In this document: positions 10,663-15,254 of the stretch, piece by piece
Numbering within the stretch: position 1 is the first letter of the stretch
Layout of the letters: each line of letters opens with the position of its first letter
Assembly: GCF_030269685.1 (NCBI RefSeq)
Contig: NZ_BSTT01000005.1
Coordinates: 1 to 64,000, forward strand
Direction of reading: 5' to 3'
Origin: Actinomycetospora sp. NBRC 106378
Lineage (GTDB): Bacteria; Actinomycetota; Actinomycetes; Mycobacteriales; Pseudonocardiaceae
Length of the DNA stretch: 64,000 nt
Notes under the pieces: generated by a model
Seen by the model: only the letters and a program-made list of their open reading frames with translations
Told to the model about the DNA's origin: nothing
Database searches by the model: none
Position numbers and translations under genes: made by a program

Positions 10663-10901
10663 TCGAAGGCTGCCTTTCGCGCACGCTGCTGTCGAAGAGG
10701 GGAACGACCGGCGGCCGAGCCTGTGACGCCGGTTCACCCGGCTCACGCACCGAGCACATCTTAGGAGTACCCGGTCGAGCCCTTACCCGGTCCGCCTCCG
10801 TAACGGTCGACCCTCCCTGCCCGAGCGCCCGCCACTACCCGACCGCACTAACCTGGGCCGCATCGGACCCGGGCACGACGGCACGAGGAGGAGGTGAACC
10901 C

Positions 10902-11552
10902 GTGGCGGAGGCGTCGCAGAGGCGATCCGAGGCGACTGCGGAGCGTGACGGTCGGTCCGGCGACGCCGTGGCGGACGCCACACTGCTCCGCGCCGTGGCC
11001 GAGCGGGCCCCTCGGGCGCTCGAGGCGTTCTACGACCGCTTCGACCGCCGGGCCTACTCCCTCGCCCGTCGCATCTGTGTGGACGAGACGCTCGCCGAGG
11101 ACGTGGTCCAGGAGGTCTTCCTGCACGTCTGGCGGCACCCGGACCGGTTCGACCCCACCCGCGGGAACGTCGCGACCTGGTTGATGACCATGGTCCACCA
11201 CCGCGCGGTCGACGCCGTCCGGCGCGAGGCCACCCGCCGCAAGTACACGGTGCCCCCCATCGACGACGGTGACGACTGGACCGGCCAGGACCGCCTCCCG
11301 CTGGGCCCGGGCGCCGACGAGGCCGCGCTGGACCGGGTCGAGGCCGGTCACGTGCGGGACGCGCTGGAACGCCTCCCCGCCGAACAGCGCGAGGCGCTGA
11401 CCCTCGCCTACTTCGGGGGTTTCACCCAGCGGGAGGTCGCGAGCATCGCCGGCGTCCCGTTGGGCACGGTGAAATCGCGCATGTTCACCGCGGTGCGCAC
11501 GCTGCGGGGGATGCTGGAGGGACAGGTCGGGCGAGGGGAGGGGACCCCATGA
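10902..11552 (+). CDS. ECF sigma factor, SigK-like
   Basis: A 216-residue ECF sigma factor with region 2 (LARRICVDETLAEDVVQEVFLHVWRHPDRFDP) and region 4 (LERLPAEQREALTLAYFGGFTQREVASIAGVPLGTVKSRM). The N-terminal leader of about 30 residues is charged. A strong GAGGAGGTGA ribosome-binding site precedes the GTG. The stop overlaps the ATG of the anti-sigma gene (ATGA), so translation is coupled. The RskA-type partner suggests the SigK (ECF19) group, which often controls oxidative or envelope stress genes. Confidence 0.9.
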   Translation: MAEASQRRSEATAERDGRSGDAVADATLLRAVAERAPRALEAFYDRFDRRAYSLARRICVDETLAEDVVQEVFLHVWRHPDRFDPTRGNVATWLMTMVHHRAVDAVRREATRRKYTVPPIDDGDDWTGQDRLPLGPGADEAALDRVEAGHVRDALERLPAEQREALTLAYFGGFTQREVASIAGVPLGTVKSRMFTAVRTLRGMLEGQVGRGEGTP

Positions 11553-12388
11553 GCACCACACCGGGTGGTCACCGCGAACTCGCCGTCGCCCGGGCCCTGC
11601 ATGCCCTGGACCCCGAGGCGGACGCGGAGTTCACCGCGCACCTCGACGGGTGCCCGGAGTGCCGGGACATCGTGGCGGGGACCGAGGAGGTCGCCGTCCT
11701 GCTGGGAACTGCGGTCGAGCAGGTGTCGCCGCCGCCGTCCTTGCGGGCGCGCATCCTCGCGGCGGCGGAGGACGACGAGGTCCCCGATGACGTCCCCGAT
11801 GACCTCCCCGATGGCCTCCCCGATGACAGGAAAGCGTCGTTGCCGGCGTCCGGTGGCAGGGACGCCGCATCGTCGAACGTGGTCCCGCTGCGTCGTCGCC
11901 GGCGTCTCGTGGCCGGGCTGGCGGTGGCGGCCGCGGCCGCGCTCGTCGTCGTGATCGGCGGGCTGGTGAACGCCAACCGCGACCTCGCCCAGGAACGGGA
12001 CGCGGCGACCGCCCAGGCCGACCGGAGCCGTCAGGTCGTGGAGCTCGTCGACGCGGCGGCCCGGCCGGGGACGCCGCATGCGGTGCTGGCGTCGGCCGAC
12101 GGGGGGTTCGTGGGGCTCGTCGTGGACCGGGGCCGGGGTCCCGAGTTCCTGGCCACCGGACTGCCGGCCAACGACGGTGCGCACACCTACGTGCTGTGGG
12201 GGCTCGCGGGCGGGCGACCGGTCGGACTCCAGGCGTTCGACATGTCCGGTTCGGGGCCCGTGACGGCTTCCGTACCCTCGACCTTGGCGGATCGCCGCTT
12301 CGCCGGGTTCGCGGTCTCCTACGAGCCCGGTCGGACGGTGCCCGCCACGCCGACGCAGGTCGTCGCGAGTGGTCAGCTGGCGGGCTGA
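11549..12388 (+). CDS. RskA-type transmembrane anti-sigma factor
   Basis: A 279-residue protein. An N-terminal anti-sigma domain with a zinc-binding histidine/cysteine pattern (HLDGCPECRD) is followed by an unusual acidic linker (about 73-115). A stop-transfer-flanked membrane helix comes next (about 118-145, after RRRRRLVAG), then an extracytoplasmic RskA domain (ANDGAHTYVLWGLAGGRPVGL). It should hold the upstream sigma factor at the membrane until regulated proteolysis. The linker is oddly built: four 12-base tandem units (VPDD/LPDG), then a 54-base segment that recurs inverted in the intergenic region near 13235. The start overlaps the sigma stop by 4 bases. Confidence 0.88.
   Translation: MSTTPGGHRELAVARALHALDPEADAEFTAHLDGCPECRDIVAGTEEVAVLLGTAVEQVSPPPSLRARILAAAEDDEVPDDVPDDLPDGLPDDRKASLPASGGRDAASSNVVPLRRRRRLVAGLAVAAAAALVVVIGGLVNANRDLAQERDAATAQADRSRQVVELVDAAARPGTPHAVLASADGGFVGLVVDRGRGPEFLATGLPANDGAHTYVLWGLAGGRPVGLQAFDMSGSGPVTASVPSTLADRRFAGFAVSYEPGRTVPATPTQVVASGQLAG
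11780..11827 (+). repeat. 12-base tandem repeat in the anti-sigma linker
   Basis: Four 12-base units (two of GTCCCCGATGAC, then CTCCCCGATGGC and CTCCCCGATGAC) encode VPDDVPDDLPDGLPDD. They abut the 54-base dispersed repeat. Confidence 0.9.
11825..11878 (-). repeat. 54-base dispersed repeat, copy A (inside the anti-sigma gene)
   Basis: Read on the minus strand, this segment matches 13235-13288 on the plus strand at 48 of 54 positions, including an uninterrupted GCAACGACGCTTTCCTG block. It keeps the anti-sigma reading frame open and encodes RKASLPASGGRDAASS. Its CTTTCCTG end borders short tandem repeats, as in copy B. Confidence 0.8.
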
Positions 12389-12429
12389 CCCTCCGCGGGC
12401 CCGCACCGACGACGAGGCCAGGGAAGGCG

Positions 12430-12924
12430 ATGACCCAGGACCAGGGCACCACCTCCGCGCGACCGACCACGACCGCCCCGGGCGAGCCGAGCGACCCGCC
12501 GTCGAGAAGGCGCCTGCACGGCCTGCGCGTCCGCCTGCGGGCCTTCCGTATGACGGTGCGCGCCCGGCCGCACTGGAACCTCGCCTGGCGCTGCGGCATC
12601 GGGTTCCTCGGCACCGTCGTGCTGATCCTCGGGGTGATCGCCATCCCGTACCCGGGCCCGGGGTGGCTGATCGTGTTCACCGGCCTCGGGATCCTGTCCA
12701 CCGAGTTCGAGTGGGCCGGCCGCGTCCTGCGCTTCGCGCGCCGGTACTACGACCGGTGGGTGGCGTGGGTGAAGCGGCAGAACACCTTCGTGCAGCTCCT
12801 GTTGGCGCTGGCCACCGGCCTGATCGTGCTGGCGACGCTGTGGCTGCTCGATGCGCTGTGGATCGTCGCCAGGCTCGTGGGCCTCGGTCACTGGACCTGG
12901 CTGCACAGCCCGATCATGGCGTGA
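12430..12924 (+). CDS. TIGR02611/PGPGW family membrane protein
   Basis: A 164-residue protein with a disordered basic N-terminus, then paired membrane helices around IPYPGPGWLIVFTGLGILSTEFEWAGR (the PGPGW hallmark), an amphipathic RRYYDRWVAWVKRQ loop and a final helix (FVQLLLALATGLIVLATLWLL). The family is widespread in actinobacteria and of unknown function. The ATG at 12430 follows a GGGAAGG ribosome-binding site. It sits 41 bases after the anti-sigma gene and just before a tRNA. Confidence 0.8.
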   Translation: MTQDQGTTSARPTTTAPGEPSDPPSRRRLHGLRVRLRAFRMTVRARPHWNLAWRCGIGFLGTVVLILGVIAIPYPGPGWLIVFTGLGILSTEFEWAGRVLRFARRYYDRWVAWVKRQNTFVQLLLALATGLIVLATLWLLDALWIVARLVGLGHWTWLHSPIMA

Positions 12925-12944
12925 GTTAGGCTTCTTCCTGCTGC

Positions 12945-13016
12945 GGGCGATTAGCTCAGGGGGAGAGCGCTTCGTTCACACCGAAGAGGTCACTGGTTCG
13001 ATCCCAGTATCGCCCA
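12945..13016 (+). tRNA. tRNA-Val (anticodon CAC)
   Basis: The acceptor stem is GGGCGAT, the anticodon loop TTCACAC sits on a CTTCG stem, and the T-arm is CACTGGTTCGATCCCAGT, with discriminator A. Outside the anticodon arm it is nearly identical to the tRNA-Val(GAC) three kilobases away on the other strand. Confidence 0.95.
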
Positions 13017-13026
13017 CTCGCAGGCA

Positions 13027-13057
13027 GGCCCGGTTCCCGTGCAGGGAGCCGGGCCTT
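13027..13057 (+). terminator. Terminator after tRNA-Val(CAC)
   Basis: A 12-base stem (GGCCCGGTTCCC with one G-T wobble) and a GTGCA loop are followed by TTCGTCGTT. Confidence 0.8.
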
Positions 13058-13234
13058 CGTCGTTCCACGGCCTGGGGTGCGCGGCGAGGCGTCACCCATC
13101 GGTCCGAGCCGGGCGCTGCAGGCTGACCGGTGACGTCTCGGCGCCGGGTGGGACGACGTCCGTGGCATCGGGGGCACTCAGGTCGCCCCGGTGCCACTGA
13201 CGTGTCGATGGTTTCCCGACGGCGGGTCCGGCCG

Positions 13235-13288
13235 GCTCGACGATGCGGCGAACCTGCCACTGGACGCCAGCAACGACGCTTTCCTGCC
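13235..13288 (+). repeat. 54-base dispersed repeat, copy B (intergenic)
   Basis: This is the inverted partner of the copy inside the anti-sigma gene at 11825-11878 (48 of 54 identical). It lies in the 349-base gene-free stretch 13058-13406. Apart from this repeat, the adjacent tandem tail and a short GGTTG/CAACC dyad near 13353-13370, I see nothing else in that stretch. Confidence 0.8.
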
Positions 13289-13333
13289 ACGGAGGCCACG
13301 GAGGCCACGGCCACGGAGGCCACGGCCACGGGG
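13287..13333 (+). repeat. Tandem CCACGGAGG/CCACGG units
   Basis: Short 9- and 6-base units repeat head to tail directly after dispersed repeat copy B, mirroring the tandem repeat that borders copy A. Confidence 0.8.
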
Positions 13334-13406
13334 AGACTGGTCCGGACCACATGGTTGTGTCCAACCGACTTTCGTGGGAACGGTTGAGCGTTCTAGTATC
13401 TCGCTC

Positions 13407-13646
13407 GTGCACGAAGCGACGGTGTGGGGCGAGCGGGCTCGCCTGGCGGCGTGGTCTGCCCTGGTGAACATCGACGAGCTGGGGCTCGACGACGACGGCC
13501 GCGTGCGGGTGGTGGAGCTCGCGCGGTCGCTGACCGAGCTCCCCGACCAGCGCAAGGCGCGGCTCCTGCGCGAGGCGCTCTCGCGGTCGACCGGCCTGAC
13601 CGTCAGCACGGTCGTCTCGTGGCTCGACGAGGTCCCCGCGGCCTGA
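13407..13646 (+). CDS. Small hypothetical protein (79 aa)
   Basis: A 79-residue, helix-rich protein (VWGERARLAAWSALVNIDELGLDDDGRVRVVELARSLTELPDQRKARLLREALSRSTGLTVSTVVSWL). The composition is normal for a globular actinobacterial protein and codon third positions are GC-rich, which supports coding. No family is recognised. The GTG at 13407 is used, with another GTG at 13422 as an alternative. It lies between the repeat region and the SGNH esterase. Confidence 0.55.
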   Translation: MHEATVWGERARLAAWSALVNIDELGLDDDGRVRVVELARSLTELPDQRKARLLREALSRSTGLTVSTVVSWLDEVPAA

Positions 13647-13727
13647 CCCGGTCGGCACCCGCTCTTCTGCTCGTCGGGGGGTGCCTCTACCGTCCTGCTC
13701 GGTCGGGTGACACGGGGAGGACATCGC

Positions 13728-14588
13728 ATGGGTGCACGTCGGGCCGTGGTCGCCGCGGCGGCGGTGATCGGGCTGTTCCTGGTGGGGACGGTGGCCTGGG
13801 CGAACCAGGCGCAGCCGCTGCGCTACGTCAACCTGGGCGACAGCTACAGCTCGGGTGCGGGCATCCAGCCGGCCGCCCCCGGATCGGCTCCCGCGTGCAG
13901 CCAGTCGCAGCTCAACTGGGCGCACGACATCGCCGCCGACACGGGTGCGACGCTCCGCGACGCCTCCTGCAGCGGGGCGGACACGCAGGACTTCCGGACG
14001 TCGCAGTCGGTCGGGGTCCCGCCCCAGCTGGACGCGATCGCCTCGGACACGCAGCTGATCACGCTGACGATCGGCGGGAACGACAACAACGTCTTCGTCT
14101 CGACGATCCAGAAGTGCGCCACCGCCGCGCTGACGACGGCCGGCCAGGGTAACCCGTGCCAGCGGACGTACGGCTCGAGCTTCGTCGACACGATCAACAC
14201 CAGCAACTACCCGAACATCGTCCGGGCGCTGCAGGACGTGAAGAAGAAGGCCCCGAAGGCCCGGGTCGCCATCTCGGGCTACCTGCGCATCCTGCCGGCG
14301 GAGAAGGGCTGCTACCCGATCATGCCGGTGGCCGCCGGGGACGTCCCCTACCTCAACGGCATCCAGGGCGCGCTCAACGACGCCGTGAAGCGGGCGGCGG
14401 CGAAGACCGGGGTGACCTACCTCGACGTCACGGCGATCTCCACCGGCCACGACGCCTGCCAGCTCCCGGGCGTGCGCTGGGTCGAGCCGGTGGTCCCGGT
14501 CAACGCCGCCCCGGTGCACCCGAACGCCATCGGCGAGCGGGAGATGGCGAACAACGCGATCGCGAAGCTCGGGCTCGCCCGGGCCTGA
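13728..14588 (+). CDS. Secreted SGNH/GDSL hydrolase (lipase/esterase)
   Basis: A 286-residue protein with a clear signal peptide (residues 1-25, ending VAWANQAQ). The SGNH blocks are in order: GDSYSSG with the nucleophile serine, a glycine in block II, GGND, and the catalytic DxxH pair near the C-terminus (PVHPN). Four or more cysteines (CSQS, CSGAD, CATA, NPC, CYP, ACQLPG) imply disulfides, as in the Streptomyces SCO-type extracellular lipases. It should hydrolyse esters outside the cell. The GGGGAGG ribosome-binding site at 13714-13720 supports the ATG at 13728. Confidence 0.9.
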   Translation: MGARRAVVAAAAVIGLFLVGTVAWANQAQPLRYVNLGDSYSSGAGIQPAAPGSAPACSQSQLNWAHDIAADTGATLRDASCSGADTQDFRTSQSVGVPPQLDAIASDTQLITLTIGGNDNNVFVSTIQKCATAALTTAGQGNPCQRTYGSSFVDTINTSNYPNIVRALQDVKKKAPKARVAISGYLRILPAEKGCYPIMPVAAGDVPYLNGIQGALNDAVKRAAAKTGVTYLDVTAISTGHDACQLPGVRWVEPVVPVNAAPVHPNAIGEREMANNAIAKLGLARA

Positions 14589-14612
14589 CCCGGTGAGCCG
14601 GGCGGCTCGACG

Positions 14613-15254
14613 TCACGGACGCCGGGCCGGGAGCTCCGTCAGGGCGCGGAGCTCCTCGGCCAGGCGGTCGCGGTGCTCGTCGAGCATTCCCGACGACGGG
14701 TCGGCGCCGTCCGACCACGCGAGGGCGTCGGAGAGGACGCGCAGTGCCGCGTTCACGGCCGCCGCGCGCACGAGGACCGTCAGGTCGTCCGCGGGCAGGC
14801 CGAGCCGCTGCCCGAGCGCGGCCGCGAACACCGGCTCGGCCCGCTCGTGGAGCACCAGCCACACCGCGCGCACCCCCGGCTCGTCGCGCGACATCCGCAC
14901 GACAGCGAGCACCGCCTCCAGGTCCTCCGGGGGCATCACGTAGGCCGCGCGCAGGTGCTCGCCGAGTTCCGCGGACTCCGGCCACGAGCGCAGGACGTGC
15001 ACGAACGCGTCCAGCGAGACCGACAGCAGCGGCTCGACGCAGGACTCCTTCGTCCGGAACAGCCGCCACAGCGTGCGCTCGGAGACCCCGGCCGCGCGGG
15101 CGATCTGCTCGCCGGTCGTCTCGGCGACGCCGTGCTCCCGGAACAGGGCCACCGCCTGCCGGGAGATCTCCAGCCGTCGCCGCCGGCGCTCCTCCTCGGT
15201 CACCGGAGGCCGGCCGCGGCGGCCGGCCGACCCGTCGTCGGGAGCTGTGCTCAT
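14613..15254 (-). CDS. TetR family transcriptional regulator
   Basis: A 213-residue regulator with an RRGRPP tail and an N-terminal TetR helix-turn-helix (ISRQAVALFREHGVAETTGEQIARAAGVSERTLWRLFRTKESCV). The C-terminal ligand domain is unclassified. It is divergent from the P450 gene with 85 bases between starts, which hold a perfect inverted repeat. It is therefore a likely repressor of itself and of the P450. The ATG at 15254 was chosen; a GTG two codons upstream is also possible. Confidence 0.88.
   Translation of the reverse strand: MSTAPDDGSAGRRGRPPVTEEERRRRRLEISRQAVALFREHGVAETTGEQIARAAGVSERTLWRLFRTKESCVEPLLSVSLDAFVHVLRSWPESAELGEHLRAAYVMPPEDLEAVLAVVRMSRDEPGVRAVWLVLHERAEPVFAAALGQRLGLPADDLTVLVRAAAVNAALRVLSDALAWSDGADPSSGMLDEHRDRLAEELRALTELPARRP

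Follow-up and report, generated by a model that had tools for sequence, protein, structure and literature searches.

A short palindromic repeat family in Actinomycetospora, with copies behind stop codons and in-frame copies inside genes

The best-known palindromic repeats in coding sequence are those of Rickettsia (Rickettsia palindromic elements, RPEs), and REPs lying inside genes have been described in several other bacteria, as far as the accessible parts of two reports go (PMC10969869, PMC3733652). The RPEs, also treated in the available part of PMC2635572, are palindromic repeats of about 150 bp that are found in-frame in unrelated protein genes, encode a recurrent peptide and have nearly half of their copies inside genes (PMC10969869, accessible sections). 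CGTC-tagged REPs are high-copy short palindromes with stems of 8–9 bp, loops of mostly 4–5 nt and a terminal CGTC. According to the available text of PMC3733652 they are located mostly downstream of genes, often as inverted dimers, some of them lie inside genes, and they have no dedicated transposase. The enterobacterial repeats RU-1, RU-2 and RU-3 (103–168 bp) are mobile and contain open frames that are fused in-frame to genes (PMC2759123, accessible part).

Here we describe a repeat family from Actinomycetospora sp. NBRC 106378, two copies of which lie in a stretch of 64,000 nucleotides (contig NZ_BSTT01000005.1, positions 1 to 64,000; hereafter the window). Compared by description with what the available text says of RPEs, short palindromes of Actinomycetospora are likewise found in-frame in unrelated genes, at 14 distinct sites (12 of them in one frame), but the host is a soil actinobacterium, the unit is only 53–55 nt long and most copies in our sample lie outside genes. 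Coding palindromes are reportedly also the subject of a paper on Nematomorpha mitochondria. With the CGTC-tagged REPs, as the accessible text presents them, the family has in common high copy number, location downstream of genes, inverted dimers and some copies in genes. CCA, which forms the tail of those REPs, stands at the conserved end, but CGTC is internal to the arm and not terminal, and the stems of the palindromic form are longer than 8–9 bp, with arms of up to 28 bp. The RU repeats, on the described features, are longer, are not perfect short palindromes and belong to other hosts. The family resembles REP/REPIN/BIME sequences, judged on partial descriptions of these, in having a short palindromic unit in more than 100 copies per genome, located extragenically near the 3′ ends of genes, where the gap is convergent or co-directional, in forming inverted pairs and in occurring in mosaics. 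It differs from them in two respects. A RAYT gene (Y1_Tnp, PF01797) was found in none of the 18 genus genomes, with the control positive in 5 of 14, and a GTAG end is absent from the alignment columns of 29 copies of the asymmetric form (with flanks) and 73 of the palindromic form (without flanks). RPEs and CGTC-tagged REPs are the closest described systems, and by analogy the Actinomycetospora family would seem to work like a mix of both. Among the literature matches listed there was no description of such repeats in Actinomycetospora.

The two copies in the window were known from a preliminary description as a 54-base dispersed inverted repeat, and its coordinates are exact: the reverse complement of 11825–11878 is identical to 13235–13288 at 48 of 54 bases, and no better ungapped register was found in the small range tried. 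A repeat search of the window placed the arms at 11824–11876 (minus strand) and 13237–13289 (plus strand), with 91% identity over 53 positions. A two-copy pattern matched the window twice and none of 100 dinucleotide shuffles; the similarity of the pair is far above chance. The first copy lies in-frame in the linker of an RskA-type anti-sigma factor gene (11549–12388, plus strand, zf-HC2 and RskA_C domains), where it encodes the peptide DDRKASLPASGGRDAASS; an ECF sigma factor gene is located upstream (10902–11552, plus strand). The second copy is intergenic according to our own gene calls. It lies between a tRNA gene (12945–13016, plus strand), which itself is situated between the two copies, and the next called gene, and an H-like copy (see below for this form) is present at the syntenic place in a related genome, G002. 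Its right end is not adjacent to a stop codon and faces a start codon 131 nt away. Apart from the tRNA, a search of 10800–14800 for known RNA families gave nothing. Different tandem arrays border the same end of both copies, as had been noted: a 12-bp array at 11781–11827 (plus strand), which adjoins the conserved end of the first copy and codes for PDDV PDDL PDGL PDD, and an array with periods of 9 and 15 at 13286–13331 (plus strand), in which the unit includes the last bases of the element (CCAC).

These two copies had been proposed to represent a small non-autonomous repeat family. A whole-genome search excludes the case that they are the only two in the genome. Blastn of 13200–13340 against the 6.31-Mb genome of the strain (G000) gave at least 52 matches with 40 of 716 candidates scored, and at least 41 matches, the query itself included, had E < 1e-13. 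The right-end 20-mer of the element, GCAACGACGCTTTCCTGCCA, has 247 matches in the same genome at ≤2 mismatches (125 forward, 122 reverse; 100 of the 247 places were listed individually), and the reversed 20-mer has 0. In a 1.197-Mb sample of G000 we found 71 matches at ≤2 mismatches and 75 at ≤4, with 2 for the reversed control at ≤4. At ≤3 mismatches the sample holds 51 elements. Scaling these 51 elements per 71 matches to the 247 gives an extrapolated figure of about 175–180 elements chromosome-wide; the sampled stretches C4, C6, C7 and C26 had been chosen because elements are present in them, and C5, C1:1-400k and C8:40-260k had not. The family is therefore a high-copy one, and the word non-autonomous agrees with the lack of an own transposase in what was searched, that is, RAYT-type genes in 18 genus genomes.

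The elements come in two forms which have one outer half in common, and the 51 elements of the sample consist of 22 of form P and 29 of form H. P is a near-perfect 55-nt palindrome made of two copies of TGGCAGGAAAGCGTCGTTGCTGTC placed back to back in inverted orientation, so that two 20-mers face outward at a fixed offset of 35. H is asymmetric: the common outer half is followed by a diverged second unit (CGACGATGCGGCGnnCCTGCCACTGGA). Both window copies are of the H form. The 20-mer is nearly invariant across many copies, with species dialects: in the G000 sample exact TTTCC is present in 48 of 71 matches at ≤2 mismatches, and in G014, by our reading of the match rows, 26 of 64 matches have the variant TTCGC. 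A related dialect, GTGCAAGCAATGCGTCACTGCTTGCAC, takes the place of the outer half at several orthologues of C8 sites in G016, G014 and G002.

RNA of the P form folds with z-scores of −10 to −14 in all three copies tested. The two window H copies gave z-scores between −1.3 and +0.1 on both strands, no better than shuffled sequences, and we therefore claim no hairpin role for H. No T-tract was seen in the copies that were read. In the P arm 19 matched double changes were counted vs 11.1 expected, and 34 of 2000 shuffles, which ignore the relatedness of the copies, reach this number. In G000 alone the excess is not significant (257 of 2000 such shuffles reach it), and near the loop of P matched changes are below expectation (16 vs 21.5). 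Compensation in the arms is thus weak, indicating that it is the primary sequence that is kept and not the pairing. Compensatory pairing as a conserved feature was rejected, the P arms varying largely independently.

Relative to genes, which were called by a simple script of our own, the elements favour positions shortly past stop codons. Among the 51 sampled elements 37 are intergenic, 1 in a divergent gap, and the other 14 overlap called genes. Ends that face a stop codon have a median distance of 11–16 nt past it. A stop codon is 0–20 nt away from the conserved (right) end of H for 16 of 24 intergenic copies in G000 and for 21 of 44 in sibling genomes; for P ends the corresponding figures are 19 of 34 and 37 of 71, vs 6.5% for random placements. 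Left ends of H are found near a stop codon more rarely (5/24 and 7/40, p about 0.02). Other long perfect hairpins of the genus occupy the same slot behind stop codons.

The preliminary description regarded the tandem repeats as a variable tail of the family. Such a tail is no more than a tendency, as the arrays are enriched but rare: a tandem array within 50 nt was found for 15 of 207 conserved ends and for 28 of 2040 intergenic stretches taken at random (p = 3e-6). The comparison of conserved ends with H left ends (2/81) is not significant (p = 0.17). By our own reading the repeated unit includes the last bases of the element in 8 of the 10 longest arrays. Slippage at the base of the hairpin may be the source of these tails.

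Tolerance of in-frame insertion into coding sequence, which had been suggested for the anti-sigma linker, turned out to be a feature of the family. In all data, 21 of 146 elements lie inside called genes with ≥60 nt of gene on both sides; calls near gene starts may include mis-called starts. Eighteen of the 21 are in one frame, all 8 labelled P among them, and this frame reads GRKASLL..DSNDAFLP. Some copies labelled H (L210, L212) are in fact palindromic, one of their arms having more than 3 mismatches. Since orthologues recur, the 21 copies correspond by our own count to 14 distinct sites, of which 12 are in the usual frame; the off-frame cases (3 of 21 copies) are one of two sites in an EmbC-type gene and one A. 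soli gene. According to the consensus, P has a second stop-free frame, and no P copy uses it. The preliminary description had noted neither that one form is a perfect palindrome, nor that elements sit behind stop codons, nor that the coding copies mostly use one frame.

One case of insertion is found in a HemK-like gene. Its product has 15–20 extra residues in G000, G002, G014 and G016, and the corresponding loop is empty in 13 relatives including G006 (G003 is not covered). In a tree of HemK-like and RskA sequences from 17 taxa, calculated with the element columns left out, the four carriers form one group (support 0.938) with the empty G006 as its sister, so one gain fits the tree. An acyl-CoA ligase-like gene contains, by eye, an element-like segment in 8 species, each with its own version. 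The names acyl-CoA ligase-like, methyltransferase-like, HemK-like and aminotransferase-like are our reading of the sequences, and the HemK-like protein scores just below its Pfam cut-off. An EmbC-type arabinosyltransferase gene (Pfam; L050, with copies at G000 C4:88071 and 89318, and L247) contains two H copies whose positions correspond between G000 and A. soli; one copy reads the usual frame, the other does not.

The copy in the anti-sigma gene is old. An rskA orthologue was found in 17 of 18 genus genomes, and the H model matches inside 8 of the 17, with 52.8 bits in G000, 41.7 in G009, 36.8 in G006 and 34.8 in G013, and more weakly in G015 (18.1), G002 (15.0), G014 (14.3) and G016 (10.8, E 0.025); the other nine give ≤1.6 bits or no match. 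The eight H-bearing species form one group with support 1.000. Confinement of the matches to one clade means that the anti-sigma copy is old and inherited and not a recent insertion; the segment predates the split of the clade and has drifted since. Presence of the segment in all anti-sigma orthologues, which would have spoken against the preliminary description, applies in about half: the 8 of one clade match the H model, some only weakly, and the other 9 do not. The 12-bp tandem array of rskA is seen in G000 and not in its orthologues.

The family is restricted to the genus, and within it to one clade. Among 41 genomes, the own one included, the 20-mer was found in 8, all of them Actinomycetospora. 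Of 390 family genomes 14 had matches, 8 of the 18 in the genus and 6 of the 372 others; the latter six have one match each, and there the reversed control likewise yields one or two. The counts in the genus are 247, 158, 146, 64, 13, 8, 1 and 1, so that six genomes have 8 or more, and the eight 20-mer-bearing genomes form one clade. It is important to note that the 20-mer is the G000 dialect, and its absence elsewhere means the absence of that dialect. In a scan of public genomes the matches listed (61 stretches) all came from two strains, A. soli SF1 and A. chiangmaiensis DSM 45062. Plasmid and phage records gave no match with a 59-nt P query, and viral contigs gave none with the exact 20-mer.

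Most sites in the compared blocks are common to close species. In syntenic blocks the 20-mer core is at the orthologous place in 85 of 105 comparisons at ≤6 mismatches, a count that has no control, and many of the 17 cases with a shorter interval are internal deletions or longer query flanks and not empty sites. Where flanks were found, the palindrome is present at G000 P sites in 10 of 12 cases in G002, 7 of 8 in G014 and 3 of 4 in G016, and occupancy is lower outside the closest species (1 of 3 in G009, 0 of 1 in G006). Arm identity where the element is present is 0.80–0.89, somewhat inflated by the mismatch ceiling of the search, vs 0.63–0.70 at four-fold sites; for G002, G014 and G016 the two figures are 0.83–0.89 and about 0.70. 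The form at one site can differ between species. One such site is the 3′ end of a gene read as aminotransferase-like, where H is present in G000 and G002, P in G014 and neither in G016, although the four genomes do not differ in the sequence downstream; at C8:220656 G000 and G014 have P and G002 has H. The empty site of G016 and the empty HemK-like loops fix neither the ends of the element nor a target duplication. No current transposition was seen in the compared genomes.

Taken as a whole, the interpretation offered in the preliminary description is partly supported. We consider it probable that the family consists of clade-specific palindromic repeats of the REP/RPE kind, combining non-autonomous spread, inheritance in place, a predicted 3′-hairpin role of P and tolerated coding copies. 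The family would have spread as non-autonomous DNA, and the copies would now mostly be inherited in place. P copies are predicted to serve as mRNA 3′-end hairpins (terminators or exonuclease blocks), in a slot that other hairpins of the genus use as well. Coding copies would have escaped removal by selection, since one of the frames is free of stops and encodes a hydrophilic linker, and the anti-sigma copy may be such a tolerated copy, acquired before the clade diversified.

A further, tentative reading, which we hold to be somewhat less probable than its opposite, is that the palindrome has a dual use: the same 55 nt of DNA would act as a hairpin when it follows a stop codon and as a neutral linker when it lies in an enzyme gene, with switching between P and H at one site and without a REP-type transposase. 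As the unit is self-complementary, either orientation of insertion would read the same tolerated peptide, and this is what would make the same sequence usable in both ways. With its large palindrome family, a free-living high-GC actinobacterium offers an insertion that can be dated, in a HemK-like enzyme, as well as coding copies in genes of the acyl-CoA ligase-like and EmbC types, and relatives are available for comparison. Two questions thereby become testable: the way in which repeats spread when no transposase is dedicated to them, and the cost of a hairpin longer than 20 bp within a translated gene.

Among the other explanations, the one that survives best is that P arises from H, or the reverse, when replication switches templates across the imperfect palindrome at a given site; the family would then be remodelled where it stands and not by new insertions. 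The two sites at which related genomes have different forms, together with the slight excess of matched arm changes, speak for it, but this excess is weak, it is not significant in G000 alone and the shuffles ignore relatedness; we regard template switching as rather unlikely, at about one chance in a few. It is less probable still that the elements are binding sites of a sequence-specific DNA protein, used in chromosome organisation or similar to uptake sequences, with selection on the primary sequence and inverted pairs that double as hairpins. Conservation of primary sequence rather than pairing, arms that are better kept than synonymous sites at common places and the species dialects would all be expected of such sites, but placement is tied to stop codons and the coding insertions are whole units of about 55 nt and not short words.

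The elements could also be intrinsic terminators of the usual kind, similar to each other through convergence or a common sequence preference and without any mobile or repeat history; the genus does have numerous long perfect hairpins of other families behind stop codons. Such convergence is improbable in view of the nearly invariant 20-mer with its almost empty reversed controls, the in-frame copies inside enzymes whose relatives are empty and the poor hairpins formed by the window H copies; it is largely refuted because the in-frame gain in the HemK-like gene has an empty sister. Least probable is that facing H pairs around one or a few genes are the terminal inverted repeats of a cargo-carrying transposon: 8 of 9 adjacent H pairs closer than 2.5 kb, the window pair included, are in the (−,+) orientation and 9 close pairs were found vs 1.86 expected, but the sample was partly chosen for pairs (only 3 are in the stretches not so chosen, C5, C1:1-400k and C8:40-260k, and sibling blocks have none), none of the 6 pairs viewed out of 8 encloses a transposase-like gene, and for one pair, inspected by eye, all 8 clade species compared have a homologue of the enclosed gene (called shorter in G002 and G013), so it is not mobile cargo, and we rejected this explanation.

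Beside the P/H family, other repeats were observed in these genomes. A second hairpin family has conserved ends, GTGAGCA..TGCTCAC, and interiors that change yet stay complementary; it usually overlaps or directly follows stop codons (G000 C5:251293, C1:168652 and C26:17408, and sibling blocks). In a third family, CGAACGGCACTCTCGC..GCGAGAGTGCCGTTCG, the loop is 13 nt long; it is likewise found behind stop codons, at G000 C5:312720, C1:176104 and C26:15144. Among repeated words, TCCCGACGACGGGT with its close variants is one of the most frequent (52 occurrences in 1.2 Mb of G000), and a 13-mer within it occurs 51 times in 0.4 Mb of G002; these words adjoin some H copies. At L082 (G000 C6:164463-164944) and L085 (C6:228081-228317) two H copies are located around mosaics that resemble those of BIMEs and consist of other palindromes, such as CGAGGTGCACGCCAGGCAG..CTGCCTCACGTCACCCTCG and GAGCGAAGTGCTCGCTCAGCGAGCACTTCGC.
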